Assembly: GCA_964017185.1 (NCBI GenBank)
Contig: OZ024877.1
Coordinates: 3,388,006 to 3,452,005 of the forward strand
Direction: 5' to 3'
DNA from: Rugalucina vietnamica
Taxonomy: Eukaryota > Mollusca > Bivalvia > Lucinida > Lucinidae
DNA: 64,000 nucleotides
The notes under the pieces were generated by a model. The model was not told the origin of the DNA. It was given only the letters and a program-made list of their open reading frames with translations, and did not search any database. The translations under genes and the position numbers were made by a program. Shown here piece by piece: positions 251-54,366 of this stretch. Position 1 is the first letter of the stretch, and every line of letters starts with the position of its first letter.

Positions 251-433
251 CAATGCAAATTGTAGACAAATCATGATTCCAAACTAACGCTTCAGTACAT
301 ATCAAGGTGGTGACGATTGGGTTTCTCTCGTAGCCAAAGTCACAGACAAAGTTATCACATTCCTCCCCTGCTCTAAACAGACAGGTGTCTGGTATTGTCG
401 CATGTGACAGATCATCGATGTTGCACATGTTAT
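251..433 (-). CDS. Sushi (CCP) module exon, last exon visible
   Basis: Internal exon of 183 bp with phase-1 introns on both sides: acceptor TTTCAG before 433, donor G|GTAGTT after 251. It encodes one selectin-type sushi module of 61 residues with six cysteines at about residues 4, 18, 26, 31, 46 and 60. The family landmarks are present: DTC, a G..C step, DFGYERN, a conserved W at 52, and a C-terminal CIG. Sushi modules are beta-sandwich units that bind proteins or carbohydrates outside the cell. Two glycosylation sequons found in most sister modules are lost here: N-F-T-C reads N-F-V-C and N-C-T reads I-C-T. It follows the DUF3011-like exon, so sushi modules resume after the second propeller. 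The gene continues beyond the window. Splice sites were read by eye. Confidence 0.83.
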
Positions 434-672
434 CTGAAATCAAGGAAAGCTCAACACAGATACTTGAACATAATTTTAAAACAATCGAACTATTCCATAA
501 TGGGATATTCTTTTTCAAAACAAGACACAGCAAAACAACATTAGAGAATAATTCAAACGGATTGATTGTCAGCGTCCAATCATGTCACATTTGTTCCAAG
601 GGGTTTTCCCATCTGAACGGAACGATGACAACTACTCTTGCTTTCACCTTCCGATGTCAGTTTAGCACTCAC

Positions 673-930
673 CTGCACAGATATGGAAGGTCGCTTCGCA
701 GCCATTATAAATCCATATTTTACTATTGGTGAACCCATATACAAGTTTTTCTCCATTGTAGTCTGATTTCTGACCACTAACGTACTCGCAAGAACCTGAT
801 ATTAATTTTGCGATTGTAACAACAAGGTCCCCTGTTACACCTTCTATGGGGCATTCCGTATAATGGTGGAACCAACTCCCGGTACAATTCATAGTTTTCA
901 CAACGTTCGAGCAGGTAGTGGGTGGTGTTT
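673..930 (-). CDS. Cysteine-rich exon resembling DUF3011
   Basis: Internal exon of 258 bp (86 residues), phase 1 to phase 1: acceptor ACTTTCAG before 930, donor G|GTGAGT after 673. It is not a sushi module. Six cysteines occur as TTC, MNC, TEC, GSC, NGC and HIC. The end, KIWIYNGCEATFHICAG, matches the pattern I recall for the small cysteine-rich family DUF3011 (an IWV-x-x-GCRA-x-F-x-V-C type ending, preceded by a C-P-I-x-G-x-V-x-L step); this is from memory and untested. The function of that family is unknown to me; extracellular ligand binding is only a guess. It sits between propeller B and a sushi exon and shares their intron phase, so it is very likely part of the same protein. Confidence 0.75.
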
Positions 931-934
931 CTGA

Positions 935-1165
935 AAGTTTAACCCAAATATGACGAATGGATTTTCCCATCATTATCATTTGGGTCAGTCCACTTTCATT
1001 ATTAGGGGCATCAGGAGTGATTTTTTTAAATTTTATTCAATTTTTCGATGAAAATTCTCTAAGCAAACAGAATAGCCCCAGATGGGACGCCGCAGAATGC
1101 GGCGTCACATCTGGGGCTATTCTGTTTGCCTATGTCCCATAAAAGGGACGCCAGGCTTAAATGAG
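935..1165. repeat. Interspersed repeat with perfect palindromic core
   Basis: The sequence from GTTTAACCCAAATATGACG through CCAGGCTTAAATGAGTTAA recurs, diverged, near 5878-6292. It holds an inverted repeat at 1064-1128 whose arms contain CAGAATAGCCCCAGAT and ATCTGGGGCTATTCTG around GACGCCGCAGAATGCGGCGTC. The repeat begins within about ten bases of the splice acceptor at 931-932. Confidence 0.7.
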
Positions 1166-1199
1166 TTAAAATAATAGCGCAAGTAGATAAATAGAATCC

Positions 1200-1340
1200 A
1201 TCATGGGTGTCCAGTGGAGATAGGAAAATCCCAACCCGAGGGTCCACCCGTTCCAGTGGGAAACGAGGCTCGCCGAGTTTCCCACTGGAACGGTGAACCC
1301 GAGGGTTTGGATTTTCCTTTCTCCACTGGGCACCCATGAT
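1200..1340. repeat. Foldback (palindromic) element with ~65 bp arms
   Basis: The left arm begins ATCATGGGTGTCCAGTGGA and the right arm ends TCCACTGGGCACCCATGAT. Inner arms AGTGGGAAACGAGGCTCG and CGCCGAGTTTCCCACT pair across the centre near 1270. No coding capacity. Most likely a foldback MITE. Confidence 0.75.
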
Positions 1341-1997
1341 CGATTCTTTTTCTTACATACTCCGATTTAATCTTTTTACCGGTAACGTAACCTGGTACCG
1401 CGCTTTAACCCTTGTGACGTTTGCATATTACGGATGTGACGTCACATGTAAATAAATCGTTGTCATGTAGTTTTTATTTGTTTTTATTTTAAAACGAGCG
1501 TGATTCAAGAATACTCGCTGTGAAAAACATCACTTTTGTCTACTTTTGGTGAACGCCATTGCTGCAAACAGTAGAAACGATCGAATTATATCACGTGCTT
1601 TTCTTATCTAGCATGAGCAACCAAACCAGCAGTGTAAGATCGATTTATCTACCACCACTAAAATACCGGAATTTTTCTATCTTTATGATAGAGGTATGTA
1701 AGAAAAATAAATTGTAGTCTCCTTGTTCAAGAGAAACCCAGTTGACTACTTGTAGAACATATGATGCCTGGTTTCGAACCCCTGATGCTAGCATGACTAT
1801 TCTTCTGTTCTATGATATTATTTAACAGCTAATGGAAAGTTTGTAATGGTTTTATATGAAATCATCTCTAAACATTATATTTTAGTAATTTGTGGAAGAC
1901 TTCTGCTAATACTGACATACATGTGGTACTTAAAAGTATTTGTTCAAATCTAGTCGTTTAGAATTAAGATACGATCCAATGTTTTGACCTTTACATA
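1341..1997. other. Intronic stretch, nothing recognised
   Basis: AT-rich sequence between the foldback and the G-family MITE. A GTGACGTCAC palindrome occurs near 1436-1445. I see no exon-like splice and codon pattern on either strand. Confidence 0.4.
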
Positions 1998-2229: not shown

Positions 2230-2256
2230 TAAAAGATAATGTTGATATACATGTAC

Positions 2257-2366
2257 CAGATCCCGGTGATTTATAAACATCCAGCCAATTCATGTCAAAT
2301 AGACCGGACTCTAGACCAGTGGTTGTCACACTAGTGTTATCATACTTGTTAACTCTAATGACAAAT
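2257..2366 (-). CDS. Beta-propeller B, blade exon 5
   Basis: Internal exon of 110 bp, phase 2 at its start and phase 1 at its end: acceptor GATTCTAG before 2366, donor TCTG|GTACAT after 2257. Joined to the preceding exon it reads P-FVIRVNKYDNTSV, then GLFDMNWLDVYKSPGSG. The I-R-V...D-N-T strand followed by LDVY is the layout of a closing YWTD/NHL-type blade. It leads in phase into the DUF3011-like exon. The equivalent exon of propeller A was not found. The short length and weak donor context keep confidence moderate, but the phases fit on both sides. Confidence 0.7.
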
Positions 2367-2692: not shown

Positions 2693-2846
2693 GGGTTATC
2701 TTTTCCAACGAAGTACACGTTATCACCGACACTGTCTAAGTCTCTGATTGAAGATGCCATAGTGTCAGTGAAGAAGGTAGTGACTTCTGTACCATCATAG
2801 TCAGTTATATAAATTGCACTGCCGTCAGACCAGTAAACAATTTGTT
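2693..2846 (-). CDS. Beta-propeller B, blade exon 4 (YWTD motif)
   Basis: Internal exon of 154 bp, phase 1 to phase 2: acceptor ACATTTCAG before 2846, strong donor CC|GTGAGT after 2693. It encodes EQIVYWSDGSAIYITDYDG, then a D-S-V-G-D-N-V-Y-F strand. YWSD is the signature of LDL-receptor class B (YWTD) repeats, and I-x-x-x-DYDG-x-x is the second half of the same motif. Such repeats form the blades of a six-bladed extracellular propeller that binds protein ligands. The exon matches 38977-39136 of propeller A in phase, length (160 bp there) and layout (DYDGTEV against NYDGSSK), so the two are duplicates. Confidence 0.83.
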
Positions 2847-3229: not shown

Positions 3230-3390
3230 CAAGAATATCCAATGAGAGGCAATACACGTCCCCAGACCCGGTAACTATCACTTGGGTTGGGGAATCATCA
3301 ACGCTCCTTTTAGACAGAGAGACGTCTGTAGCAAATTTCATTAGGACGTAGGAATTATTTACAGTAGAGTGGATTATGCCGAATACTATC
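3230..3390 (-). CDS. Beta-propeller B, blade exon 3
   Basis: Internal exon of 161 bp, phase 2 to phase 1: acceptor TTTTCAG before 3390, donor CTTG|GTAAGA after 3230. It encodes IVFGIIHSTVNNSYVLMKF, a variable loop, then VIVTGSGDVYCLSLDILG. The alternating strands with a terminal L-x-L-D-x-x-G step are blade-like and align with A-exon 45453-45595, which ends H-C-I-A-V-D-V-T-G. Sequence identity to other propellers is low, so the assignment rests on position, phase pattern and the paralogous exon. Confidence 0.75.
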
Positions 3391-3905: not shown

Positions 3906-4080
3906 GGGAGCAAGAAGTCCAATTCTATTGCAACAAACGTTTCATCTACGCCGTTGTATATCTCACTAGTGTATTCATCATGTTCAATCTTTCCTAAAAT
4001 TCCACGAGCAGCAAAGAAAATGTTTCCGTTGGTTGGGTCAGCGGCAATGTCAGTGATACCGCTAAAGTCTGATCGTGAAG
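3906..4080 (-). CDS. Beta-propeller B, blade exon 2
   Basis: Internal exon of 175 bp, phase 1 to phase 2: acceptor TTTTGCAG before 4080, donor CTCCC|GTATGT after 3906. It encodes S-S-R-S-DFSGITDIAADPTNGNIFF, then a glycine-containing turn, GKIEHDEYTSEIYNG, and FVAIELDFLLP. The I-T-D-I-A-x-D-x-x-N-G-x-I-F-F step is the start of a YWTD/NHL blade and matches V-S-D-L-A-L-D-T-T-T-G-D-V-Y-F in A-exon 54156-54366. Same phases, same order in the gene. Confidence 0.82.
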
Positions 4081-4126: not shown

Positions 4127-4430
4127 CATCAGGAAAACATGTCCGTGAAATGTATACCCCATTATACCCTACCTTATTATAGAAAAAAACTGGGGTTTGC
4201 AGGGGTATACCTATTTTTCTTATTTTTGCTTCAAAATATAGATTGTGGGTACTCGTTAGAACCGCCTCGGCGAGGCGGTTCTAACGTGTACCCACAATCT
4301 ATGTTTTGAGCAAAAATAAAAAAAAACATCATTTTTTTTTTCAAAACATCATTTTTTTTTCTACTGAAAATTTTCATTTTTTACAACTTTAAAAATCTCT
4401 GTATATTGCATGGGCATTTTTTTCGTAATG
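4127..4430 (+). mobile_element. Family D MITE, copy 1
   Basis: Starts CATCAGGAAAACATGTCCG and ends TTTTTTTCGTAATG, so the ends are imperfect inverted repeats (CATCAGGAAAA against CATTACGAAAA). Core palindrome at 4241-4299: TTAGAACCGCCTCG followed by GCGAGGCGGTTCTAA. No ORF of note. Sits in the intron between propeller B exons 1 and 2. Confidence 0.88.
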
Positions 4431-4853
4431 AAAGGAAGAAAGGTGTGAAGGAAAATCATCATGACAATAAAACAATTATTGCAAAGCTGAAACGGGAGAT
4501 TCAATTATATAACAACATTGCAACGGAGGACAGTATAAGGAAAATGGAAAATAACACAGCATGCGGCGGTTATAAGAATATCATAAACAAGCCAGATATC
4601 ATATATACATGAACTAGAGCAAAATAGTTCTATTGAAGCACACTCAATGGTCTGAATGATTATATTTTCCACAGTGACTATTGGAATACACGTATGTCCC
4701 TAGATTCAAATAAAATGCTGATATTCCGACATGGATTCTGAATGTGCCAGTTTAGATTTAAGTTGTTTAGAATTTCGTGAATTGCCTTACTAACAAAGGT
4801 CCGTGATGTAAATTCTTATTCTTGAAAGGCTAAATGATATTAATTCCACTTAC
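4431..4853. other. Intron, nothing recognised
   Basis: The 68-codon open frame here on the plus strand is AT-driven and matches nothing I know. Confidence 0.4.
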
Positions 4854-5099
4854 AAAGATCGAGCACAACCTCCGTGGCACCATCGGCTATTGAACGACGT
4901 TTTATAATGTTTCCAACAGACCACACGATGCTTCTGCTGAAATTGTCATAATCGATTCCTGACTCGGTTCCCGCATCAGGTCCTCCAACAACCAATAGTG
5001 GTTCACTCGAGGTTGAGTCATTAAGGGCCAGTTGGTATATACCACCATTTGGCCAGGTTTTGATAAAAATGAAATCATCTGTAGCAAGCGCCGGAAAAG
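4854..5099 (-). CDS. Beta-propeller B, first exon (blade 1)
   Basis: Internal exon of 246 bp (82 residues), phase 1 to phase 1: acceptor AACATTTCAG before 5099, donor CTTT|GTAAGT after 4854. It reads AFPALATDDFIFIKTWPNGG, then IYQLALND, LLVVGG, SGIDYDNFSRSIVWSVGN, RRSIADG and ATEVVLDLCK. The G-I-D-Y-D-x-x-x-x-S-I-V-W-S-x-G-N-I-I-x-R segment is a clear YWTD-type blade. It begins the propeller after the sushi array, and its phase joins directly to the last sushi module. No signal peptide precedes it, so I see no sign that a separate gene starts here. The matching first exon of propeller A would lie 5' of 54366 and was not found. Confidence 0.83.
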
Positions 5100-5457
5100 C
5101 TGAAATGTTACATGCAATGTTGATAGAAATACATGTCATATTCAAAATGTGCAATATGTATTTGTGTGTTTTGAAATGGTAAACGTAGGAATAGAAGGTT
5201 CAAGAAATGATACAATTAAAGGCCAATACAAAGACATAAGGCAGTTAAAAGGAGCAATACAATGCAGAAACGAAATCGCACTAAGGTCGGTCGATGCAGA
5301 GGTATCTGACTTTTCATTTCAGCCCACCAAAACGCTGAAAATATTTTTTTTTCAGAATTAAGGCGGTTCAGTCTTTTGCTGAGCTGAAATTATTCAGATA
5401 CTCATGGTCGATGTGAAGGCGTTCCTGATTTCCTTGTACTGTAAAGCAATACTTTGT
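5100..5457. other. Intron, nothing recognised
   Basis: No repeat family or exon seen between the acceptor of 5099 and the next D element. Confidence 0.4.
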
Positions 5458-5737
5458 CATCACGAAAACATGTCCGTGTAATGTATACCCCCCTTGAACC
5501 CCACTTTTATATAGTTAAACTGGGGTACGAAGGGGTATACCTATTTTTCTAATTTTTGCTCCAAAACGTAGATTGTGGGTCCTGGTTAGAACCGCCTCGC
5601 CGAGGCGGTTCTAAAGTGTACCCACAATCTATGCTTTGAGCAAAAATAAGAAAAATGTCAAAAATTTTCATCTGAAAATTTTCAATTTTCAAAGCTAAAA
5701 AAATCTTTGTTTATTGCATGGGCAAGTTTTCGTAATG
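5458..5737 (+). mobile_element. Family D MITE, copy 2
   Basis: CATCACGAAAACATGTCCG to GGGCAAGTTTTCGTAATG, with core GTTAGAACCGCCTCG / CCGAGGCGGTTCTAA near 5584-5613. Nearly full length. Confidence 0.88.
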
Positions 5738-5785
5738 TGTACCACCACTGAGTGTAACACAGTTGCTGTTTACGTCTAGGGGACA

Positions 5786-6300
5786 CTCACTTCCTGCGGT
5801 TAATTAAAACAACCTGCAGAAATGTATTGCGAAACTCCTTGGGTTTTAGTGTTTCACCATGAGACATCACGGTTAGTCTTTGGTTAACCCATGTTTGACG
5901 AATGGATTTTCCTATCAATATCAATTGACTCCTCCGCCAGCAAGGTATAGCCACGCCCACTCCTATTTCCTTAGACAAACATTGTGTTTTTGCACCTATA
6001 TTTACCTGTAAAAAGCAAGTGTTGGTTTGTTTGTCTAACCCACGTGTTGTCTAACCGTCATTGACCGTTAGCTAATGTGCAGATTTGAATGGTCAATATA
6101 AAATGAATATTAATGATGGGTGGTTTGACGGAGGACTCAATTGGGCGAGTCCATTTTCATTTTTATAGATGTTAGGAGTGATTTTTTCATTTTTATCTCG
6201 TTTTTCGATGAAAAATCTCCAAGCAAACACAATAGCCCCAGATCTGTTTGTCTATGTCACATAAAAGGGACACCAGGCTTAAATGAATTAATGTCATTCA
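5786..6300. repeat. Second copy of the 935-1165 repeat with extra sequence
   Basis: Shares GTTTGACGAATGGATTTTCC with the first copy, and further on CGATGAAAAATCTCC, ACAATAGCCCCAGAT and ACCAGGCTTAAATGA. Unlike the first copy it has lost one palindrome arm: CCCCAGATCTGTTTG jumps straight to the far side. GTTTGACG motifs also recur near 6120. Confidence 0.65.
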
Positions 6301-6484
6301 TTCACTTTGAGAGTCGAGTTCAGCAGTTGGCAAATAAAATGACAGCATTATGGACGCATGTGTTGTTTATACATGTATAGGTACCATAGAAGTTTTCTTA
6401 CCTGTTCTATGTTGAAGTTTGGCGTTAGATTCTTGTGTAGTTAAAGGCGCTTACTCTCATATTGCGACAGATTTCTCTGAATTT

Positions 6485-6758
6485 CATCAGGAAAACATGT
6501 CCGTGACATGTATACCCCCTTAAACCCCACTTTTATATAGAAAAACTGGGATTTGCAGGGGTATACCTAATTTTCTTATTTTTGATCCAAAACATATATT
6601 GTGGGTACTCGTTAGAACCGCCTCGTTGAGGCGGTTCTAATGTGTACTCACAATGTACGTGTATGTTTTGAGCAAAATATTTAAAAATTCAAAATTATTC
6701 TTTTTTTTCTGAAAAAAAAAAAAGTCTCTGTATATTTCATGGGCAAGTTTTCGTAATG
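6485..6758 (+). mobile_element. Family D MITE, copy 3
   Basis: Starts CATCAGGAAAACATGTCCG and ends GGGCAAGTTTTCGTAATG. Core GTTAGAACCGCCTCG / TTGAGGCGGTTCTAA near 6610-6640 with one mismatch at the axis. Confidence 0.88.
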
Positions 6759-6841
6759 TAATTAATAAGTCAGACGATGATCGCAGTAAGAAGCCAAGAC
6801 AAACGCTATACAAAACATTCACCATGTATGTCATATAAATA

Positions 6842-7013
6842 CATCCTTAAACCCCACTTTAATTATATATAGTAAAACTGGGGTTTATTGGCGGTTCTAA
6901 CGTGTACACACAATCAATGTTTTGATTAAAAATCTAAAAAATATTTTCTTTTTTTTTCGACTGAAATTTTCAGCAGAAAAAAAAAATCTATATTGCATGG
7001 GCAAGTTTTCGTA
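6842..7013 (+). mobile_element. Family D MITE, truncated copy 4
   Basis: Lacks the left end and the left half of the palindrome. It begins near CCTTAAACCCCACTTTAATT and passes from GGGGTTTATT straight to GGCGGTTCTAACGTG, ending ATGGGCAAGTTTTCGTAGTG. Deletion within the hairpin is a likely cause. Confidence 0.75.
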
Positions 7014-7956
7014 GTGGACCATTTAGTTCAAACTATTTAAAAGTTCACAATGCATATTTACAAGAAATCCAAATGGACAAATATCAATGACAAAAATGTG
7101 TCATTATCTTGTTATTATTACGTTGACTTGATGAGGTTCGATTCAATCCAAATTAAAATACGGATAATATTTTAAAATTCAACACTTTTTATGTCTTCGG
7201 GTGTTTCAGTCATTCCTGACTGTCGTAAATCTGCATCATACTCATAAGTCATTATATCACTTATTTTGTTACTTTCTTGTTTAAACGGCATGATGTAAAG
7301 GTTTATTTTTTTTTCTTAAATATTTCTTATATCTACGGTTTTAAAAGCTTCTTAAAGGGAACAATTTGCATATTGTCCCAGTCCATCTTGATACTGCATC
7401 TTTATTCGCATTGCCATGTCACTATCAATAAACAAACATGTATTAGTTTTTTCAAGTGACTTTATTTTCTTAAGTTCAAAATCCTTTTCTGTTTACACTA
7501 AACAATTAGATCTACACTTAGCGTTAATGAAAAGTTACCAGTAAATCAAATTCAAATAACACATGGCATGACGACCTTGAAAATAGTCCTCAAACTTTTC
7601 GAAAATACACAAATTGCACGTGTTTCACGTGCACCATAGCTTTGATGCTTTTGGAACAGTTAAATGACACTTAATTTGCCGTTGGCCAGAATCATGAATG
7701 ACATATCATAAGTTTAAGTGGTGGTAACGTTTCATTGACGTTGAGTATATTACAAATAATACAATAATATTACCAATACAATTTATGCAGTAACATGATT
7801 AACAAAAACACAGTTTTCAGATCAATGCAATGAGGTCTTAATGGTGACTACCTACGGAGACTGCTTTGCGGTGTCAAATGGTTTAGTTCGCAGTTTTCTT
7901 CTCAATCAATAGCTAAGGAAGAAGAAATTTTGGTTTAAAGTATCGCCTTAAAAAGG
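7014..7956. other. Intron, nothing recognised
   Basis: AT-rich unique-looking sequence; short open frames only. Confidence 0.4.
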
Positions 7957-8292
7957 TTTAAGTAGGTAAAGAACAGGAAATGGCACAATAAGAAAAAAAA
8001 ATCCGACTCCAAAAACCGAGGTCAGAAAACTATATTGACAATTAGGAACTTATACAAAGAAGGTAAAAGTAGGCAATGATCAGAAAATGTTGCACCCCAC
8101 TCCGAAATCGAGGTGGAATAAACTAAACTGACAATTAGGTACTTATACTAAGACAATACAGCGTAAGCAGCTATTTCCAAAATAGGCGGTCACTCAGTTA
8201 CCCGAACTTAAAGTATGAAAACAGCACAAATATTCAACAGTAAAACATAAAACAAGTAGAACCACAACAGAAGTATCGCCTTGGAACGATCA
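7957..8292 (-). repeat. Family A, two diverged partial copies
   Basis: A first antisense fragment (about 7957-8055, with CCAAAAACCGAGG) is followed by a second (about 8060-8292) running from GTAGGCAATGATCAG through CAGTTACCCGAACTTAA to AAGTATCGCCTTGGAACGAT. Confidence 0.75.
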
Positions 8293-8551
8293 CATCATGG
8301 AAACATCTCCGTGTGGAACTTAACCCCTTCAAACCTATACTTATATAGTAAAATTAATGTTTGACAGGGTCATAAGAAAAAATCAATAATTGGTGTAATT
8401 ATGTAATTAAAAAATCAAAGATGCTAAATTCTAACAAAAATCGATATAATTATAAACCATTCCTTTATGACAGGCAAGGTAAAAATTTGTAAAATTAAAA
8501 TTTAGTTCATAAATAGATATTTAATATGTAATTAAATGAAACCGTAATGAG
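8293..8551 (+). repeat. Family E element, uninterrupted copy
   Basis: Starts CATCATGGAAACATCTCCG and ends AATGAAACCGTAATG. It matches 36612-37172 apart from a D insertion there, and so serves as the empty site for that insertion. Its left part (CTTAACCCCTTCAAACC, TATATAGTAAAATTAATG) parallels family D, which suggests a shared origin. Confidence 0.7.
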
Positions 8552-8789
8552 TAGGGAGGGGCTTGAACCAATTTCACAGGCTGGAGAAGCCCTAAGACTG
8601 GAGGAGACCAAGGGCAAATTCACGATCCTGATACTTAATAGTTGAAAATGTAGATGTAATTAATAAACAAACAACATTCTAGACAAGGTGCAAAACAGCC
8701 CACATCTCCAAGAAGTAGAACATAATGTTGATGTCGATGTCATTGTGTTATATTATTAAGCCCCGATGAAATTAGTAAAATAACACTAT

Positions 8790-9001
8790 TTTGTGTTTTT
8801 TGGATTGGGTGTTACGTCCATTTCAAGATTATTTCAGCTGATTTGAGACGGGCCTACCCGCAAGCAGAACTTTGCTTATCTTACATATGCCCCGTGTCAG
8901 GCTCGAACCCACACCAGCCATTGCGGTGAGATTATCGAAGATTAAGCACGGAAATGAAATCGCGGTAATGAAATATCAGTGCTCTTTACCACCCGGCCAC
9001 G
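8790..9001 (-). mobile_element. tRNA-derived SINE, antisense
   Basis: In antisense it shows a B-box-like GGCTCGAACCCACACCAG near 8900, an A-box-like CTCTTTACCACCCGGCCAC at 8983-9000, and the tail TTACGTCCATTTCAAGATT. The same order is seen at 57378-57612. The head resembles a Ser/Leu-type tRNA. Divergence suggests an old insertion. Confidence 0.75.
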
Positions 9002-9023
9002 GGGGGGGGGGGGGGGGGGGGGG
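9001..9023. repeat. Homopolymer G run (23 bp)
   Basis: Uninterrupted G run abutting the tRNA-like end of the SINE. Length may be unreliable, as such runs are error-prone in assemblies. Confidence 0.95.
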
Positions 9024-9258
9024 CGCTGAAAAAGACTTTGTAATTAATAAGTGTTTACAATGTGCTGAGGTACGTATGACAGTTGCATTGTTCATGTCAT
9101 CATCATTAACATTTATGTGTATAACGCGTTATGTATAAGAAATACTCATTTCTTTGACATTTAGGAAACATTATCACAATGAACCCATATGAAAGCTGGA
9201 ACATTAACTATTTAATTCTCATATCGTCTTCTAGACGAAAACTGACTAAAAAGAAGTA

Positions 9259-9534
9259 CATCAGGAAAACATGTCCGTGCAATAAATAACCCCCTTAACC
9301 CCACATTAATGTAGTAAAACTGGGGCATGCACGGTATACCTATTTTTCTTAATTTTGCTCCAAAACATAGCTTGTGTGTACTCGTTAGAACCGACTCGCC
9401 GAGGCGGTTCTAACCTGTACCAACACTCTATGTTTTGAGCAAAAATAAGAAAAATAACAAATATTTTCTACAGAAGTTTTCATTTTTTACAACTTAAAAA
9501 ATCTCTGTATATTGCATGGGCAAGTTTCGTAATG
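9259..9534 (+). mobile_element. Family D MITE, copy 5
   Basis: Starts CATCAGGAAAACATGTCCG and ends GGGCAAGTTTCGTAATG. The core palindrome has one mismatch (GAACCGACTCG against CGAGGCGGTTC). Confidence 0.85.
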
Positions 9535-9885
9535 AATACAATAATGCCCAGTGAGAGGTAATGTCTGCGCAGAGCCAACATCGACTATGCAATCTCCCAA
9601 CTTGAACAGTCTCGAGTATAAGGTTTAGACATCGTTAACAAAACCACTTTCATAAATAATAAAATATGAAACATCAGAAAAAAAACAATTGCCAGATTCC
9701 AGCTGGCTATTTATTATCAAAATGCCCTTAAATAAGTAATTAAGTCCAAATCAACACAAATGCATAAAATACAAAATATTAAAATCAAGAAAATGACAGA
9801 CCATTCAGCAAGGTACAGATCTAGGGTATTATATCACAGCTGATAAACACGTGGTATGGAATGGGAAACGCACCATTCAATTGAA
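9535..9885. other. Intron, nothing recognised
   Basis: No exon or known repeat seen. Confidence 0.4.
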
Positions 9886-10220
9886 GTTGAGATGAAACAA
9901 AAATCGAGTTTTCTCCTATACCGTTTACTCTTTTGACTGATTGATAGGCGCAGTCAATGCTGAAATTGAACATTTATTGAAAGAAAGTAACATAAGAAAT
10001 CCAGGTTATTTCTTTTTCGCAATCACTTCTGCCCCATGAACATTTAGTGCTTCCAGCACAATAACATTGAAGTGTTTGCGGAAACAAAATAACCGGGGTT
10101 TCTTATGTTACTTTCTTTCCATAAATATTCAATTTCTGCATGGACTTCACCCATCTATTTTTCAGTAGAGTACATGCTATAGGAGAAAACTCGAATATCT
10201 AACCTCAATTTCTGTCTAAA
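9886..10220. mobile_element. Family F inverted-repeat element, copy 1
   Basis: Outer arms: CGAGTTTTCTCCTATACCG at about 9903 and TATAGGAGAAAACTCG at about 10181. Inner arms: AAGAAAGTAACATAAGAAA and TTTCTTATGTTACTTTCTT. A related copy spans about 45660-46060. No coding capacity. Confidence 0.7.
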
Positions 10221-10375
10221 CTTCAGTTTACAGTCATAGATAATTCTACATGTATATTTCATGTCGATAAACATTGTCTATATATAACAACACATCCGAT
10301 TGAACTATAATTTGTTCACATTGACCTTGCCGACTGACATCATGTAGCAACATTTTGCAAATATATGAAGTGCAA

Positions 10376-10525
10376 ATCGTTTTACCGTGCCGGTTGACCT
10401 CTGACATAGATCTAGCATTTGTTGATCTGACTACTTTAATATGTATGTTTTCAATCATACGGCTCTTTGATGATAAATAATATACGACCATGTACTGTGC
10501 GTGTCACTGGAAAACTTTGTTACGT
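10376..10525. repeat. Diverged ~150 bp direct repeat, unit 1
   Basis: Aligns with 10801-10950: CCGTGCCGGTTGACCTCTGA against CCGTGCCGCTTAACCTCTAA, then ATGTATGTTTTCAATCATAC against ATATGTTCTCAATAATGC. Units are about 425 bp apart. Nature unknown. Confidence 0.6.
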
Positions 10526-10800
10526 CACGTCTGGTTCCCCAGGTGAAGTATTGTCATTTTCATGTGTACCAGTAAACCATTCCGATTCAAAACCGGCAAT
10601 GTCAAAGTATTTGCGCTATACTTGCTCAAGACATTTCCCAGTGTGATGTGAATTACGTGGATACAATTTATGGCTTGGGTACCATAATAAAATGACATTA
10701 TAGAAAAAATACCCCGTTGACGAAGTTCATGGCCGATGTTTCATGACAGGATGAAAGAACATGTTTAGAAATAATATAAAATATCTTAAATAGGAGTTAT

Positions 10801-10950
10801 AGGTAAACCACTTTGACCGTGCCGCTTAACCTCTAACATATATATGCGTTTGTTGCTCGTACTGCTTAAATAAATATGTTCTCAATAATGCGACTCTATG
10901 AAGGTAAACAATATATGACCAAGTGGTTCACATTCTACTGGAAAAGGTGT
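10801..10950. repeat. Diverged ~150 bp direct repeat, unit 2
   Basis: Partner of 10376-10525. The remainder of 10526-11442 shows no family I recognise, apart from a short tandem of AGTAAGAAGAATAT-like units at about 11140-11195. Confidence 0.6.
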
Positions 10951-11442
10951 AAAATATAGGTGTCCCTTTTATAGACTGGTATCAGTCCACTAAATATAAC
11001 AATATCACTTTAACTTAACAAACAAATGTCCATCAAATACAACTACTTACTATCAAAGTCGGATTGTGCATGTTTTTTTAGCTAATGGTGAGGTAATAAA
11101 GTACCATGGAAAAATAGCCCTTCAATGGTTATGCACCTTTCAGTAAGAAGAATATCAAGAAATATCGTCAGTAAGAAGAATATTCAAGAAATAATGATGG
11201 TCTTTCTTATTAGAGAGACGGACGACCAAGAAGAATATCTGGTGGTAGAGTCAAATATCTAAATACATGGCCTGAATGTCATGCTACCACTTTTATCGTG
11301 TTTACAAATCTTCATCACGTGAGTTCAAGCGGCACAGTCACAGTATTTTACCTATATCTTATCGCTTTAGGCATTTTTGTGCATGGACTTATTGTCGTTA
11401 TTTGAATTGCTTTATCAAACATGTCTAATAGAAACTATTATT

Positions 11443-11689
11443 TGAGCCGTCTCGTGGGAAAACCAACAATGTGGTTTCCGACCATTTCCGAGACAAACCA
11501 GGCTGTACGGTCACAGACGATGGTTAGAGGCTGGAAATTTTGGATTTAGAAAGTAGAGGAATTGTACTATCCATGTAGCGAAAACAAAGGCGCTGATCAG
11601 CTTCGCGGTTACCGCGAAGCTGATCTGCGTCTTTGTTTTCGCATATGCAGATTGTTGGTTTTCTCATAATGCGGCTCATTTATTATTAT
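11443..11689 (-). mobile_element. Family G MITE, copy 2 (well preserved)
   Basis: Ends: GAGCCGTCTCGTGGGAAAAC and GTTTTCTCATAATGCGGCTC. A strong internal palindrome near 11590-11637 pairs AGGCGCTGATCAGCTTCGCG with CGCGAAGCTGATCTGCG. The copy at 1998-2229 is the same element in opposite orientation. Confidence 0.8.
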
Positions 11690-12105
11690 AAAGTGAATGG
11701 CGTTCTGTGATACGACAGAATGACATGGTAAAGCCATAAATGGAACTCTGAATGCAGAACCCAAAATATACATAAGCATAAGGTAAAAAAGGAAGTATGT
11801 CAATCTGTGCACGTTCATTGGTACGGTAGGTTCACGTCACTTGTTTTGTCTGAAAAACAACGAAGGTGTTTGATTAAAAAGTTAAACATTCAGAAGAACA
11901 ACAACGTACACCATTTCATAGTCCCTTTAAAGCTGCGGAAATGAACTATCATTGCATAGACACGTATTCCATATCATTTAGAAAACCTGACGTGTTCATT
12001 TGTATAATAACATAGGAAGAATCGAGATATTCGCTAGTTTACAATGAACACAATTTCCCAACATATACATGTATTCTTATGCAAATTACTCTTTTGTTCA
12101 ATCCT
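11690..12105. other. Intron, nothing recognised
   Basis: No exon or repeat family seen. Confidence 0.4.
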
Positions 12106-13775: not shown

Positions 13776-13955
13776 CTGAACATCTGACAACATCGTATAT
13801 CTCCCAGTTGGTGTTTGACATACATATCACCGAATCTGTACTCGACACTTGCTGGTACTTATTGTTGCATATCGTATAGTTGCACGTGCTTCCCAGTGCC
13901 GCAATCCAGCCAGATATAGTTGTATCAGCAGGGGGCGATATCTGACAGTTGATTG
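13776..13955 (-). CDS. Divergent sushi module exon (module 12, last of array)
   Basis: Internal exon of 180 bp, phase 1 to phase 1: acceptor TATTTTCAG before 13955, donor TCAG|GTTCAA after 13776 (weak). It encodes 60 residues beginning AINCQISPPAD and ending DVVRCSG. Cysteines sit at about 4, 25, 30, 45 and 59. The second cysteine of the six-cysteine pattern, normally in an S-x-T-C context, is missing and GWIAA stands nearby. The conserved W is kept (51), but DYGY has become NNKY. An odd cysteine count suggests relaxed constraint or pairing with another module. Position next to propeller B and correct phases argue that it is still an exon. Confidence 0.72.
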
Positions 13956-13975
13956 CTGAAAATATGACCATTAAT

Positions 13976-14605: not shown

Positions 14606-14797
14606 CACTTGCCATAGTTGAGCTGCACAGGAAAGATATGTTCAATGCCCAAGTTCCGTCCTCTAAACAGACTAGTGACACGATGTCATCAAGCCGCGAG
14701 AAGCCTTGGTAACATGTTATGTTGTCACAGGTAGAGCCGACACTTGTAGAGCACTGGTCTGATAGTTCTCCATTTGAAATATTGCTCGGACATGACA
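14606..14797 (-). CDS. Sushi module exon (module 11)
   Basis: Internal exon of 192 bp (64 residues), phase 1 to phase 1: acceptor CTTTTAG before 14797, donor AGTG|GTAGGG after 14606. It starts VSCPSNISNGELSDQCSTS and continues with GSTCDNITCYQGFSR, LVCLEDGTW and ISFLCSS. Six cysteines in the selectin-type sushi order. It carries a short extra tail after the last cysteine (SSTMASG), making it the longest module here. Sequons at N-I-S, N-I-T-C and N-I-S-F. The open frame upstream is intron read-through over a pyrimidine-rich tract and should not be taken as a signal peptide. Confidence 0.85.
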
Positions 14798-15127: not shown

Positions 15128-15310
15128 CTGTACACAATGTTGACAAGTCGTAATCCCAGGTTCCATCCTCTGTACAGTTTAACTGACCGACATTAGCTTT
15201 CTTCAAGTAACCAGAATCACATGTAAAATTCTCACATGAGTCATCGACTTTAGAGTCTAGGCAGGATGCATCGATGGTGCCATGTGGAATGATGTTAGGG
15301 CAAATTGTCT
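15128..15310 (-). CDS. Sushi module exon (module 10)
   Basis: Internal exon of 183 bp, phase 1 to phase 1: acceptor ATATTTCAG before 15310, donor ACAG|GTACAT after 15128. It encodes ETICPNIIPHGTIDASC, then DSCENFTCDSGYLKK, LNCTEDGTWDYD and STLCTG. All six cysteines and the G-x-W step are present. Sequons N-F-T (adjoining cysteine 4) and N-C-T (around cysteine 5) are both kept. Typical central member of the array. Confidence 0.88.
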
Positions 15311-15865: not shown

Positions 15866-16045
15866 CTATACACAAAGTTGATAAGTTATGGTTCCATTCG
15901 CCAGATTCGGTACAGGTCGGTGAACCGAAAGTAGCATTTTGTTCATAGCCGCGGGCACATGTCACGTTATCACATGGTTCTCCAACCTTCATTGAACAGT
16001 CATTAAGTGTACCATGAACCAGATCCACACTTGTGCATAGTATCT
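15866..16045 (-). CDS. Sushi module exon (module 9)
   Basis: Internal exon of 180 bp, phase 1 to phase 1: acceptor ATTTTAG before 16045, donor ATAG|GTATGC after 15866. It encodes EILCTSVDLVHGTLNDC, EPCDNVTCARGYEQN, SPTCTESGEWNHN and STLCIG. Six cysteines; N-V-T-C keeps the cysteine-4 sequon, while N-C-T has become T-C-T. Extra sequon N-A-T in the loop after GYEQ. Separated by about 550 bp from module 10. Confidence 0.88.
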
Positions 16046-16739: not shown

Positions 16740-16919
16740 CGACACATACAGAAGACCCATTGAAGTCCCAGCTACCATCCTCCGTGCAGTTAAATGACAG
16801 TACGCCCTCTGTTTCATTGTAACCATAATCACAGGTAAAGGCATCACAGGAGTCACCAACATGAATACCGCATGTATCACTCAGATTGCCATTCGAAATC
16901 TGTCTGTCACAAAGAGTTT
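16740..16919 (-). CDS. Sushi module exon (module 8)
   Basis: Internal exon of 180 bp, phase 1 to phase 1: acceptor TTCATGTAG before 16919, donor TCG|GTAGGT after 16740. It encodes ETLCDRQISNGNLSDTC, GDSCDAFTCDYGYNE, FNCTEDGSWDFN and SSVCVG. Six cysteines. The cysteine-4 sequon is changed to A-F-T, but N-C-T, N-L-S, N-E-T and N-G-S remain. The opening ETLCDR is shared with module 5 (27477-27656), pointing to a recent duplication. The long open frame upstream is intron, not exon. Confidence 0.88.
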
Positions 16920-17647: not shown

Positions 17648-17827
17648 CAATACATAGTGTAGACAGGTCGTAGTCCCATGTCCCGGCGTCTGTACAGTTG
17701 AATGGCTCGACACCTGTTTCTTCGTGATAACCATAGTCACAAGTGAACGTGTTACATGAATCACCAACTTTTCTTCCACAGGTGTATGATATGTTTCCGT
17801 TAGGTATCGCGGTCGGACACATGATCT
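17648..17827 (-). CDS. Sushi module exon (module 7)
   Basis: Internal exon of 180 bp, phase 1 to phase 1: acceptor TTTTCAG before 17827, consensus donor ATTG|GTAAGT after 17648. It encodes EIMCPTAIPNGNISYTC, GDSCNTFTCDYGYHE, FNCTDAGTWDYD and STLCIG. Close to the array consensus in every landmark. After it (5' side) comes the largest intron inside the array, about 9.3 kb of repeats. Confidence 0.9.
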
Positions 17828-27116: not shown

Positions 27117-27299
27117 CTGTACATAGTGATGATAAGTTGTAACTCCATTCTCCAGATTCTGTACAATCAAATGGCGTAAATGTCTGGTTTTCTCGATATC
27201 CGTATAAACAGGTGAAATTGTCACATGTTTCACCGACTGTTAAAGCACAAGTTTCATTAGATACTTCGCCAAGTTCAAAAGTTGTGGGACAGAGTGTTT
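27117..27299 (-). CDS. Sushi module exon (module 6)
   Basis: Internal exon of 183 bp, phase 1 to phase 1: acceptor CTTTGCAG before 27299, donor ACAG|GTTAGT after 27117. It encodes ETLCPTTFELGEVSNETC, VGETCDNFTCLYGYREN, FDCTESGEWSYN and SSLCTG. Six cysteines with correct spacing; DYGY reads LYGY. The N-F-T-C sequon is present; N-C-T has become D-C-T; N-E-T and N-Q-T are extra sequons. It has no methionine-started frame and is easily missed by simple ORF calling. Confidence 0.88.
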
Positions 27300-27476: not shown

Positions 27477-27656
27477 CAATACAAAAAGTTGCCACGTCAA
27501 AATTCCACAATCCTTTCTCCGAGCAGTTGAAAGCAGCAACACTTTCGGCTTTCTCAAACCCATAACCACATGTAAAGTTGTCACAAGTGTCTCCAACATT
27601 AATGTCACAGGAGTCTGAGAGATTGCCGTGTGGAATTGATCTGTCACACAATGTTT
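27477..27656 (-). CDS. Sushi module exon (module 5)
   Basis: Internal exon of 180 bp, phase 1 to phase 1: acceptor ATTCCAG before 27656, donor ATTG|GTATGG after 27477. It encodes ETLCDRSIPHGNLSDSC, GDTCDNFTCGYGFEK, FNCSEKGLWNFD and ATFCIG. Six cysteines. Opening and C-terminal halves resemble module 8. Only about 180 bp of intron separates it from module 6, the tightest spacing in the array. Confidence 0.9.
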
Positions 27657-29623: not shown

Positions 29624-29803
29624 CTATACAGAGCGTTGTCATGTTATAATCCCAAGTCCCGTCTTCGGTACAGTTTAATGGCTCGATTTCTGTATTTTCA
29701 TGGAAGCCATACTCACAGGAGAAGTTGTTACATGAATCGCCGACTCCTACATCGCAAGAACTTGACAGCTCGCCATGAGGAAAACTTCTATTACACTGGG
29801 TCT
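29624..29803 (-). CDS. Sushi module exon (module 4)
   Basis: Internal exon of 180 bp, phase 1 to phase 1: acceptor TCTCCAG before 29803, donor ATAG|GTAGGC after 29624. It encodes ETQCNRSFPHGELSSSC, GDSCNNFSCEYGFHEN, LNCTEDGTWDYN and TTLCIG. Six cysteines; sequons N-R-S, N-F-S-C, N-C-T and N-M-T, the most heavily decorated module. The family C array begins 23 bases beyond the donor, so the insertion just spares the splice site. Confidence 0.9.
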
Positions 29804-30048: not shown

Positions 30049-30228
30049 CTATACATAATAATGATACATTGTAGCTCCAGTCGCTTGAATCTGTACAGTT
30101 GAAGGTATCTACCATATCTGTTTTGTAATATCCGTAATCACAAGTGAAGTTACCACATGTGTTGTCAACTCTGTTACCACATGTTGAGGATATGTCACCA
30201 TTTGGTATAGTCAGATTACAAAACGTTT
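30049..30228 (-). CDS. Sushi module exon (module 3)
   Basis: Internal exon of 180 bp, phase 1 to phase 1: acceptor TTATTTCAG before 30228, donor ATAG|GTATGT after 30049. It encodes ETFCNLTIPNGDISSTC, VDNTCGNFTCDYGYYK, FNCTDSSDWSYN and SLLCIG. Six cysteines; sequons N-L-T, N-F-T-C, N-C-T and N-V-S. The usual E/D-x-G-x-W step reads D-S-S-D-W, so the turn glycine is missing. Confidence 0.9.
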
Positions 30229-30834: not shown

Positions 30835-31011
30835 CTAAGCAAATACTTGTGTGGTTGTAGTTCCAGTCCCCTGATTCAGTACAATTCAGAGAGCCAACAT
30901 CCGGGTTTCTGTGGTAACCATAGTCACACGTGAGGGTATCACATGTCTCTCCTACCTTGGCAGTACACGTGTCAGTAGCATTGTCTATGCTACCACTGCT
31001 ACATATGATTT
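30835..31011 (-). CDS. Sushi module exon (module 2)
   Basis: Internal exon of 177 bp (59 residues, shortest of the array), phase 1 to phase 1: acceptor GTTTTCAG before 31011, donor TTAG|GTTGGT after 30835. It encodes EIICSSGSIDNATDTC, GETCDTLTCDYGYHRN, LNCTESGDWNYN and TSICLG. Six cysteines. One residue is missing between cysteines 1 and 2. The cysteine-4 sequon is lost (T-L-T-C); N-A-T, N-C-T and N-H-T remain. Confidence 0.88.
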
Positions 31012-32317: not shown

Positions 32318-32497
32318 CGTTGCACAACGTTGGTAGCTGAACATTCCAGATTCCAGCTTGAGAACAGATTAAGTAAACAATAGTTGTGTTCTTCTTGTAC
32401 CCATATCCACACTGAATATCAGACATATTGCACGATCCGCCTAGCTGTGTGCAATTTTCAGGTAATGTGGTGTTGCCGAGCCCTTCTTCACTGCAAC
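32318..32497 (-). CDS. Sushi module exon (module 1, first of the array)
   Basis: Internal exon of 180 bp, phase 1 to phase 1: acceptor CAACTCAG before 32497, donor AACG|GTTAGT after 32318. It encodes GCSEEGLGNTTLPENC, GGSCNMSDIQCGYGYKKN, LICSQAGIWNVQ and PTLCNG. All six cysteines and the conserved W are present, but it is diverged from the central modules: E-T-x-C is lost and cysteines 3 and 4 are one residue further apart. No internal methionine-started frame marks it. Its phase-1 start cannot join directly to the phase-2 end of 38977-39136, so an exon between them is missing from this annotation. Confidence 0.82.
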
Positions 32498-34094
32498 CTG
32501 AGTTGATACGGAAAAATCAAATATTTAATAAACGAGCTATAATGCTTCTGTTTAATTGCCACTTACACCTTTCAAATTTGTTGTCGACAAAATGGTATTG
32601 GAATTAATACAGAAAACAAAATTATATGTTATGCTGATAGCCGTTAGACAAAAGGGAAACCTTTGCAGGATTCTGTTTTATTTTGAAATATAATATACGA
32701 ATGCCAACTTGTGATGAAAATCCGTCATGGAATGAACATCACCACGCCACAGTTCAAGACTAAAAACATTTTATCATCTTTGTGGTCTTTAAGCAAAATA
32801 CGAACTTACTTGTCAACAGATCATAAACAAATTATTCTATAATGCTTAATTTAAGTGCTTATTTAGTTATTTTCCGACCCCCTTTATTATTTTCATTTTT
32901 TTTGGTGGGAATGTCTTTCAGACTGCGCCATTTCCTGTTCATTGTCTACTTTTATTTTTCTATTCAAACGCACATTGAATACTGCAATGCTGTATGGTGT
33001 AATACATATAACAAAATACACTGTATCAATATAAAAAATGAATAAATTACAAAATTGTGAACTTATTTTAGCACATGAAAATGATGGACTCAAGCACTCG
33101 TTAAACCCCCTATTTCATAAAAGTGTTCACTGCTCTGACAGCATTTTCTGTTTTTATTATTTTTTTTTTTTGTATTTTGATCAGTTCGTTTTCCTTAACA
33201 GATCAAACAATTGAATCGAACGAGCAAATCAAAAAGAAAACAAATAATACAGACCTACATCAAAAAGAAACCCAACAAACGAAAGATAACTCACTCGTTA
33301 TGGACGATCCGAAAAATGTCGGTACATCAATGTATGACATGTGCTGTAGCCCATTTGTTGGTTCGAAGTCTGTCACGTTTGATGCGTCCAATCTGTGTAC
33401 TTTTGTAATTTTACTGTGAATAAAGCACTGAAATAACTAAAATGTGTTTTTTGGTGTCTGAGGTAAATGTGTTCCCTCAAAAATTCAAAAATGACCAGAA
33501 AATGGCACAATCAGAAAGAAATTCCCACTCCAAAAACCGAAGTGGGAAAAAAACTAAAGTCTAAAAACTTGCCTCTGATAATGGTTTTTCGCAGAAAATG
33601 TTGTATGGCGGACAAAAGACAGAGTGTTTTGATGTCAAAATCTCAGTCTCAGTTTGTCCTAATAGGACCTGCAAAAAATTTGAAAATCGGTCATTGATAA
33701 AGTTTTAACGGCAAAAATGAATTTTCAATGAGGATTCTGTATTGACAAGGGAGGTATTCGATGATCGCAAAAATTGATACTTTTCGGAAAATTTTACTTG
33801 ATCATGAAGATTTAGCATCAAGTAAGTTATATGTGTCATATAAAATGATTTCGAACAATCATTTTAAAATACTAAGGATTTGCATTTTTGCAGGAAAATA
33901 TTTACCTCCCTTTCATGAGATTTTTTTTGTACAGAAAATCCCTATTCAAAAATGTTTTGACCATATTTGTTTTTATTTGTCCATCGATTTTAAAAATTTT
34001 TGCTACACATTTTGAGACAAACTAAGTGCTCAGTTATGCCAAGAAAATATTTTTGATGAATTCAAACAGTTGCAAAATATCTGCGAAATAGAGG
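32498..34094. other. Intron with two family A scraps
   Basis: Sense scrap at 32900-32955 (GGTGGGAATGTCTTTCAGAC) and antisense scrap at about 33495-33560 (ATTCCCACTCCAAAAACCGA). Open frames at 33123-33419 and 33467-33697 match nothing known to me. Confidence 0.5.
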
Positions 34095-38976: not shown

Positions 38977-39136
38977 CGTGAAGTCGAAGAAACAACGTAG
39001 TATATATAGTCACCAACAACTTTCATATCATATACTGATCCAGATGGTAGTGTGTAAAACACGGCCTTACTACTGCCATCATAGTTCATTTTCAAGATTG
39101 TACCGGCAGTGGTGTCACTCCGCAGCACAGTTTGAT
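38977..39136 (-). CDS. Beta-propeller A, blade exon (third visible)
   Basis: Internal exon of 160 bp, phase 1 to phase 2: acceptor CTTTTTTCAG before 39136, donor CACG|GTTAGA after 38977. It encodes DQTVLRSDTTAGTILKMNYD, GSSKAVFYTLPSG, then SVYDMKVVGDYIYYVVSST. The I-L-K-M-N-Y-D-G strand followed by D-x-K-V-x-G-D-Y-I-Y-Y is a full YWTD-type blade. It matches 2693-2846 of propeller B in phase, length and layout. It should be followed by a phase-2-to-1 exon like 2257-2366, which I could not find. Confidence 0.82.
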
Positions 39137-45452: not shown

Positions 45453-45595
45453 CTGTTACGTCAACTGCGATGCAGTGTACAGTGGCGGTAATTCCAGCTT
45501 CTATTACTTCAACATTCGAGCCATTGAAATCCATTTTAACTATATCATATTGAGTTCCGCTTGCTACTGATACCCGTATGAGGGCAAACAGAAAC
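45453..45595 (-). CDS. Beta-propeller A, blade exon (second visible)
   Basis: Internal exon of 143 bp, phase 2 to phase 1: acceptor CTTTGCAG before 45595, donor ACAG|GTAAGA after 45453. With the previous exon it reads G-FLFALIRVSVASGTQ, then YDIVKMDFNGSNVEVIEAG and TVHCIAVDVTG. I-V-K-M-D-F-N-G-S-N is a strong YWTD-repeat strand, and I-A-V-D-V-T-G opens the next blade. Counterpart of 3230-3390. Introns on both sides are 6-9 kb. Confidence 0.85.
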
Positions 45596-51930: not shown

Positions 51931-52204
51931 ATATAGAGACAAAGAACAAAGCAGGATGTTTTTAGAGATTGATACAGCTTACTGTATTGTTTTTATCTAC
52001 TTTCTGCTTTTTCATGTTAAGTAACAGCAAAAAATAAAAAGGGTAATACACACACGGTATTTTTCCTCAACTTGACTCTCAGTTAATGCCGCAGGTTTGT
52101 TAAAAAGAAAACGTGATTATTGAATATAATACTCACAAACACCATTCTGACGATGCACGGTGTTCAAACTCATTAAATTTGTAGGACACAAAAATTATGT
52201 TAAA

Positions 52205-52975
52205 AAAAGGAACAAGTAGGCAAAGATCAGGAAAAGGCGCAATCAGAAAAAGATTCCCACTCTAAAAACCGAGGTGGGAAAAAACCAAACTAACAATCAG
52301 GTACTTATACCATGAAACATATCGTAAGCCGAATGAGCAGCTATTTTCCCAATAGGTGGCCACTCAGTTACCTTAACTTAACTAAAAATATGAAAACATA
52401 CATAAGGCGCCAACAGCACAAAAAAGTTTTATACACCAAGACATAAAACAAAAAGAACAACCACAGAAGTATCGACTTGGAACGATCAGTAACACAAAAT
52501 TACTGGCGGGCTTAAACCGGTTTTACATGGCCATAACCTCACCCTCAGCTTCTGCAGTGGTTCATAACATTTAGTTAGTTATTCGGTCCTCGTGGTGAAT
52601 CTCTAACTAGTAAATGAATCATCAAGAACAAACAAATAAATCATGATAAACATCCTGATGAATCAAAAACCAGGACTCACAGACTGAGTAAGCTGCCCGA
52701 CGATGGAGATCCCTGGGCGCCGAATAACCTACTAACTCCGGAGCAAAAGAAAAACACCAGTTGGACCCCGGTGGGCCAAGCAACAGACAAGAAGCTCCGG
52801 CCCCAACCAACTAAAATGAATAGCTTTATGTCGGGGCTATCATAGAGTCTGACGCCTGACACACCGGCGTGCAATTAAAGAAGGCAGCATAGTCATCAAC
52901 CATGATTGGGTTAAAAACTAAGCATGCAGACTGTCGCATAACATTCAAGTTATAACCTATACGTCTGTAACAAAA
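52205..52975 (-). mobile_element. Family A, long 3'-end copy with coding remnant
   Basis: Antisense from ACAAGTAGGCAAAGATCAGG through GAAGTATCGACTTGGAACGA, CGGTCCTCGTGGTGAATCTC, GATGGAGATCCCTGGGCGCC, GACAAGAAGCTCCGGCCCCA to the coding end. The most complete single copy of the 3' region, about 770 bp. Confidence 0.93.
52826..52975 (-). pseudogene. C-terminal end of the RT protein (truncated)
   Basis: YRRIGYNLNVMRQSACLVFN, PIMVDDYAAFFNCTPV and a degraded G-R-A-S-D-S-M-x-A-P-T end (QASDSMIAPT). 5' truncated, as expected of a retroelement copy made from the 3' end. Confidence 0.8.
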
Positions 52976-53020
52976 AAAGTGTCTTTTTGAACACTTTTGT
53001 GGGAAAACATCAAACACGTA

Positions 53021-53494
53021 TCAATCTGAATTCTTTTTGTTATTAATGACTTAAACGTAGTTAGAAATAAACATAAAATGCGCTTTCGAGCAATAAAAAT
53101 GCATTTTAGATGGACTCGGAGGCAAATAATTGTAGAGGTAAAATTGCAGAGTCGGGGCTCGCTCAATCAAATGTCTATAAAACGACAACCACTGCATGTA
53201 AAGAACCATCCTTGATACGATTGTTGATACAGATGTTAGTCATTATATCTGCCGAATTTTAGCCGATTTACTTAATTCTGGTAGAAGTTATTTGATAGTT
53301 TATCAATCTTATTTTTCACAAGTACCTAATGGGCTACCGTAGAAAAACGCCTGCTGTGTTGTTATGCAAGTCGATCGTGATTTCTATACAGTGGTTTCAG
53401 ATACCCCATATAATTACCTTTTCAACCATATACAATTTAGCCGTATTATTTTCGGGTGCAAGGGTTAGCCAAAATCTTCATTGGTTCCCCAACT
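53021..53494. other. Intron, nothing recognised
   Basis: Short open frames only. Confidence 0.4.
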
Positions 53495-54130
53495 AATAAG
53501 TAGGCAAAGATCAGGAAAAGACGCAATCGGAAAAAGATTCCCAGGTGAGACAAAACCAAGTTAACAATCAGGTACTTATACCATGAAACCATATCGTAAG
53601 CCGAATGAGCAGCTTGACTGATCGTTCCAGCGCGATACTTTTATAGTGGTTCTATTTGTTTTATGTATTTGAGTCACATCGTTTTGCTAACATCTGTTAA
53701 CATGTTATTCGTTGGTACTTATATTTTATATCTCTTAACATGATTTCCTTATTGCTTGTTTATATCTGTGTATATCAGAGCCACTGCGGAAGCTGAAGGT
53801 GAGGTTATGGCCATGTAAAATCGATTTAAGCCCGCGAGTAACAGTAACCTATTAGGAAAATAGCTGCTCATTCGGCTTACGATATGTTTTCATGGTATAA
53901 GTACCTGATTGTTAATTTAGTTTTTTCCTCACCTCGGTTTTTGGAGTGGGAATCTTTTTCTGACTGCGCCTTTTCCCGATCTTTTCCTACTTGCACTTTT
54001 TACAGGTACCTAACCTCACCCTCAGCTTTTGCAGTGGTCCACAATAGTTAGCTAGTTGTTAGGTCCTCGTGAGGAATCGCTCACTAGTCAATGAATCATC
54101 AAGGTCAAACAAATAAATCATGATTACCAC
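53495..54130. repeat. Mosaic of family A pieces in both orientations
   Basis: Antisense piece 53495-53615 (TAGGCAAAGATCAGGAAAAG), sense pieces from 53620 (ACTGATCGTTCCAGCGCGAT) to 53995 (CCTACTTGCAC), then antisense 54003-54130 (CTAACCTCACCCTCAGCTTT). Ends 25 bp from the donor of exon 54156-54366. Confidence 0.85.
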
Positions 54131-54155
54131 CATGATGAATCACATCAAAACTTAC

Positions 54156-54366
54156 CCATTTATAGGATCAATAGCAAAATCCTGGAAAGTATTTGTCGTA
54201 TGGTAAAGCTCTGTCACCTCACCATTGGTATCTATCACTCCGATACTGCCTATTCTCTGAGGATCTCCATAGAATGCACCGCTATAACCGGCAAAATATA
54301 CATCTCCTGTGGTTGTGTCTAGGGCCAAATCAGAAACCCTTGTGATTACTAGGTCACCGGAAGAAG
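54156..54366 (-). CDS. Beta-propeller A, blade exon (first visible)
   Basis: Internal exon of 211 bp, phase 1 to phase 2: acceptor TTTTCTAG before 54366, consensus donor AATGG|GTAAGT after 54156. It encodes S-S-GDLVITRVSDLALDTTTG, DVYFAGYSGAFYGDP, IGSIGVIDTNGEV, TELYHTTNTFQDFAIDPING. The V-S-D-L-A-L-D-T-T-T-G-D-V-Y-F-A opening and closing F-A-I-D-P-I-N-G are both YWTD/NHL-type blade starts. Counterpart of 3906-4080. It is the most 5' exon found; at least one more propeller exon and the protein start must lie upstream. Confidence 0.87.

Follow-up and report, generated by a model that had tools for sequence, protein, structure and literature searches.

The modules discussed here are known from several described systems. 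In the LRPs, YWTD (LDL-receptor class B) propellers are linked by EGF modules, and selectin sushi repeats carry six cysteines. According to the available text of two papers, CCP-only 'P-selectins' (CCP-rich genes) have grown by tandem duplication in the venerid clams (Venerida; PMC9484242), and DUF3011 is the repeat of the galacturonic-acid-binding egg lectins AKL and ADEL of the sea hare Aplysia (PMC5484111). A coral skeleton proteome paper, in its available text, names YWTD and sushi as domains of different proteins. Here, we describe a locus of the lucinid bivalve Rugalucina vietnamica in which propeller, sushi and DUF3011-like exons follow one another on the minus strand. The window, i.e. 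the whole 64,000-nucleotide stretch analysed, is C9:3388006-3452005 (contig OZ024877.1, here C9) of a 1.09 Gb genome in 47 contigs; coordinates below 1 or above 64000 refer to flanks outside it. No paper in the literature searched (mostly non-subscription papers) describes a propeller, sushi and DUF3011 combination, in agreement with an earlier note made from this sequence, which had called the architecture unfamiliar; it looks new and is built from known modules.

The window holds 23 exons running from 54366 to 251: four of propeller 1, 12 sushi exons, five of propeller 2, then one DUF3011-like and one further (13th) sushi exon. AG/GT borders flank all 23, the phases agree at each of the 22 junctions and the joined frame is free of stops over 1364 amino acids. 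The chain is therefore real, as had been noted earlier, with corrections: 22 exons had been counted rather than 23, and the single phase mismatch claimed at that time is not borne out. The exons are as follows.

54156..54366, minus strand: B1, propeller 1 exon, phase 1-2
45453..45595, minus strand: C1, propeller 1 exon, phase 2-1
38977..39136, minus strand: D1, propeller 1 exon, phase 1-2
33295..33413, minus strand: E1, propeller 1 exon, phase 2-1
32318..32497, minus strand: SU1, sushi exon, phase 1-1, divergent, without a Pfam Sushi match
30835..31011, minus strand: SU2, sushi exon, phase 1-1
30049..30228, minus strand: SU3, sushi exon, phase 1-1
29624..29803, minus strand: SU4, sushi exon, phase 1-1
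27477..27656, minus strand: SU5, sushi exon, phase 1-1
27117..27299, minus strand: SU6, sushi exon, phase 1-1
17648..17827, minus strand: SU7, sushi exon, phase 1-1, scoring above the Pfam Sushi cut-off, top row of the alignment used for folding
16740..16919, minus strand: SU8, sushi exon, phase 1-1
15866..16045, minus strand: SU9, sushi exon, phase 1-1
15128..15310, minus strand: SU10, sushi exon, phase 1-1
14606..14797, minus strand: SU11, sushi exon with a C-terminal extension, phase 1-1, counterpart of SUy outside the window
13776..13955, minus strand: SU12, sushi-like exon of a special type common to SUz, five cysteines, phase 1-1, weak donor
4854..5099, minus strand: A2, first exon of propeller 2, phase 1-1, weak acceptor
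3906..4080, minus strand: B2, propeller 2 exon, phase 1-2
3230..3390, minus strand: C2, propeller 2 exon, phase 2-1
2693..2846, minus strand: D2, propeller 2 exon, phase 1-2
2257..2366, minus strand: E2, propeller 2 exon, phase 2-1
673..930, minus strand: DUFa, DUF3011-like exon, phase 1-1, all-beta model without a PDB match
251..433, minus strand: SU13, sushi exon, phase 1-1

A sushi cysteine pattern (six cysteine positions and a tryptophan), which was written after the exons had been seen and permits tryptophan at position 2, has 13 minus-strand matches in the window, each within a phase-1 AG..GT frame; the plus strand and 40 first-order Markov sequences of equal length yielded none. Six cysteines are present in 12 of the 13 modules, so the six-cysteine array proposed in the earlier note stands except at SU12, which has five, the second being replaced by tryptophan. 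The Sushi hidden Markov model check suggested there was run: Pfam Sushi matches eight of the 13 modules at E ≤ 0.1 (best 1.7e-5; SU7 lies above the Pfam cut-off) and leaves five without a match, while Pfam HRM matches two. Against the PDB, a profile of the 13 modules finds C4b-binding protein and beta-2-glycoprotein I at E ~0.001. An AlphaFold model from the alignment of 12 sushi modules has a pLDDT (predicted local distance difference test score) of 92.1, and a fold search of the PDB with this model gives E-selectin as the first match (E = 0.026, probability 0.98). Most of the listed rows are CCP/SCR proteins, although no match reaches E ≤ 0.001 and the second-ranked is an unrelated zinc finger. 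The sushi identity of the modules holds, and the predicted structure has the sushi fold.

The nearest kind of sushi is the selectin-type six-cysteine module, a likeness shared with the bivalve type-B 'P-selectins'. The available text of PMC9484242 does not describe propellers or DUF3011-like modules for the latter, and, unlike in selectins, neither a C-type lectin nor an EGF domain was found in the scanned pieces of the present chain. The array of 12 sushi modules (725 amino acids) contains 37 sequons and is acidic, with 102 aspartates and glutamates against 22 lysines and arginines. Elsewhere in the genome, a dense single-strand run of strong sushi exons lies at C10:17309319-17353433 and ranks with the best of the 150 Pfam Sushi matches that were scored.

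Judged by sequence comparison, the propellers resemble the YWTD propellers of LRP2. Using phmmer against the PDB, the portion of propeller 1 inside the window matches LRP2 (E = 8.1e-9), LRP4 (E = 2.2e-8) and LRP6 (E = 0.005), and propeller 2 matches LRP2 (E = 6.4e-9). A profile of three propellers (the third, propeller 0, lies in the right flank) gives E = 8.1e-32 with LRP2 when summed over 11 stretches, the best single stretch having an independent E-value of 4.8e-5. The Pfam check proposed in the earlier note gave no LDL-receptor class B (Ldl_recept_b) match for any of the three, the likeness being to LRP propellers in the PDB instead; at E ≤ 0.1 Pfam returns only weak matches, to DUF5050 for one of the three and to SGL for one of the three. 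An NHL identity was rejected as there is no Pfam NHL match, leaving YWTD from the former 'YWTD/NHL-type' label. Propeller 1 is present in the window, as had been claimed, but is incomplete there: its first exon, A1, lies outside at 119731-119492. With A1 added to B1-E1 it becomes a full-length propeller that aligns along its whole length with propellers 0 and 2, which have a common five-exon layout; the identity to propeller 2 is 31% for propeller 1 and 40% for propeller 0. A shortened copy of B1 with a stop is found at 54383-54490, immediately upstream of B1. Propellers 1 and 2 share the six-bladed YWTD-type sequence with the LRP family, but here they are flanked by sushi modules and not by EGF and LDL-A modules, neither of which was found in the pieces covered by Pfam scans and inspection.

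The chain continues on the minus strand past both ends of the window. To the right lie A0, B0, C0, D0 and E0 (propeller 0), a sushi exon (SU0) and A1, with SU0 ending at 120099 and A1 beginning at 119731, a gap of 367 bases. To the left follow, in order, DUFb, two WAP-like exons and the sushi-type exons SUy and SUz.

-7145 to -7402, minus strand: DUFb, second DUF3011-like exon, outside the window
-8877 to -9032 and -9552 to -9770, minus strand: two WAP-like exons, cysteine-rich, labelled from the cysteine pattern by eye

The DUF3011-like assignment of DUFa, made earlier and put to the suggested profile check here, is plausible on sequence grounds. DUFa has no Pfam match at E ≤ 1, and DUFb, a copy ∼7 kb outside the window that is 69% identical to it, matches Pfam DUF3011 at E = 0.042, with 14.2 bits against a cut-off of 25. 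DUFa is modelled as all beta (pLDDT of 72.6); the best result of a PDB fold search with this model has E = 2.4 and is not a usable match, and a single PDB profile match of the DUF3011-like exon (E = 0.56) was taken as chance. One of the WAP-like exons matches Pfam WAP at E = 0.19 (12.5 bits against a cut-off of 20.8) and the other has no match. AKL and ADEL consist of three tandem DUF3011 repeats alone in 218-219 amino acids, as described in the available text of PMC5484111, whereas the present locus has single DUF3011-like exons within a mosaic and a match below the cut-off. Nine DUF3011-like matches turned up in the genome: two at this locus, three on C6 (27.72-27.82 Mb), two on C5 and two on C8. 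Those on C6 adjoin a row of sushi exons (27.98-28.01 Mb), and this region (C6:27724747-28007613) is possibly another lectin-sushi locus.

The whole chain comprises 35 exons and 6345 nucleotides, encoding 2114 amino acids without a stop, with AG/GT borders and matching phases throughout; it contains 126 cysteines and 52 sequons. When the exon order was shuffled 20000 times, the phases were never all preserved; with 23 of the 35 exons of phase 1-1, however, the control is weak. At the start of the chain, the frame of A0 continues upstream into a hydrophobic stretch led by an ATG, and a TATATAA is found 146 bases before the A0 border. Whether all 35 exons form one gene of ∼154 kb (141807 to -12103 in window coordinates), read as a single transcript, is nearly an even question in our judgement, and we adopt this reading with that reserve. 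For its upstream part the case is better, and propeller 0 through to the 12-sushi array is probably one transcript. A signal-exon scan of the 367-base gap between SU0 and A1 gave no candidates, A1 has no in-frame start codon and a paralogous locus keeps the same order, with a D0-type exon at C9:3138605(+) and, 42 kb further on, an A1-type exon at 3180338(+); all of this favours one transcript for propellers 0 and 1. At a third locus, exons of the D0 and E0 types precede an A exon at 3316853 of unread type.

The junction between SU12 and A2 is where the single gene could instead be divided. Phases match across this 8.7 kb gap; a strict signal-exon scan of it gave no candidates and a loose scan gave one weak candidate, which does not exceed the rate elsewhere (16 in 65 kb). 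The 400 bases upstream of A2 (5099), like those upstream of A1, contain no TATA box, unlike the region before A0. These observations, together with the open frame, make the one-protein claim of the earlier note plausible, but several others weigh against it. The far end of the chain repeats the SU11-SU12 pair in the form of SUy-SUz, as if each pair closes a gene. SU12 and SUz are 52% identical and group in a 100/99 clade, SU11 and SUy bear similar C-terminal extensions, and the genome yielded only three exons of the SU12 type (SU12 and SUz here, with the third at C9:2422466). The donor of SU12 and the acceptor of A2 are both weak; at 13649 there is a candidate for a short stop exon, which has a good acceptor, ranks fourth among 13 in score and has a coding score of ∼0; and A2 reads upstream into an in-frame ATG-led stretch, which is less hydrophobic by eye than that of A0. 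Furthermore, joining A1 to B1 takes a 65 kb intron, a transmembrane exon scan after SUz gave one poor candidate with neither a 3' end nor a stop exon established there, the WAP and DUF3011 matches are under the Pfam cut-offs or absent, and the splice and signal scores are home-made.

The same sushi pair at both ends, the rarity of the SU12 type, the weak borders with the in-frame ATG of A2 and the stop-exon candidate, and the clustering of propeller relatives on both strands of C9 would all suit two adjacent tandem paralogs, a reading that we rate as somewhat short of even. The first gene would consist of propeller 0, sushi, propeller 1 and 12 sushi modules, ending after SU12, and the second of propeller 2, DUF3011-like, sushi, DUF3011-like, two WAP-like modules and the sushi pair, so that the window would hold the 3' part of one gene and the 5' part of the next. 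Such a division has to contend with the gap described above, where the phases match and where neither a good signal-peptide exon nor, in the 400 bases before A2, a TATA box was found. In addition, nucleotide and protein comparisons of the sequence after SU12 with that after SUz show no common 3' exon, only the SU12/SUz match itself and repeat-like matches.

Seven near-perfect 25-base palindromes (AGAACCGCC...GGCGGTTCT, with at most three mismatches) occur at window positions 4258, 5588, 6614, 9387, 12230, 14102 and 34812. None are expected by chance, and six lie within 4258-14126, inside or close to the gap that separates the two units.

The very long, repeat-filled introns, the stop at the end of the shortened B1 copy (54490-54383) and the failure to find a 3' end could also indicate a partly decayed or non-expressed array of duplicated units, in which exons stay open with no intact gene across them. 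We consider this improbable; all 35 exons retain an open frame, borders and phase.

Returning to the single gene, the protein order would be signal peptide, propeller 0, sushi, propeller 1, 12 sushi modules, propeller 2, DUF3011-like, sushi, DUF3011-like, two WAP-like modules and the sushi pair. The signal-like start at A0, the 126 cysteines and the 52 sequons suggest an extracellular, glycosylated protein, which may be secreted or held at the surface; no anchor was found. The propellers, being LRP-like, suggest protein ligands, while the acidic sushi array, taken to be stiff and N-glycosylated, could serve as a spacer or stalk or offer another surface for binding. Sugars may be the ligands of the DUF3011-like modules, by analogy with the egg lectins of Aplysia, and for the WAP-like modules protease inhibition or an action on microbes is conceivable. 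A role in recognition or adhesion, in immunity or the matrix, is the likeliest that we infer; the adhesion or immune receptor suggested in the earlier note would accord with this, but transmembrane exon scans gave none between SU12 and A2 and one poor candidate after SUz.

All 16 propeller matches found in the genome (22 candidates were scored) map to the 2.398-3.530 Mb interval of C9, on either strand, and five of them are propeller 2 itself; the propellers therefore belong to a local gene family. We propose, tentatively and with more doubt than confidence, that the ∼154 kb gene encodes a mosaic with three propellers, where YWTD propellers take the place of the lectin head on a sushi stalk like that of selectins and lectin modules of the DUF3011 type are additions, and that members of the C9 cluster recombine phase-1 exons as a lineage-specific recognition family. 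This would link YWTD propellers, within a clustered family, directly with sushi modules of the selectin type and with a lectin-like domain whose known occurrences are mainly in sea-hare eggs. If expressed, the locus would offer a test of how invertebrate recognition repertoires grow by phase-1 exon movement and would place DUF3011-like domains within a large mosaic protein.

Two further features of the window were noted. Two Rfam SECIS_1 matches lie on opposite strands at opposite ends of a 445-base stretch (19561-20005) with a 118-amino-acid open frame; they were not accepted as a selenoprotein signal and are more likely to be the ends of a short repeat-like element. A 454-base tandem repeat of 2.7 copies (28272-29494) lies inside an intron of the sushi array.

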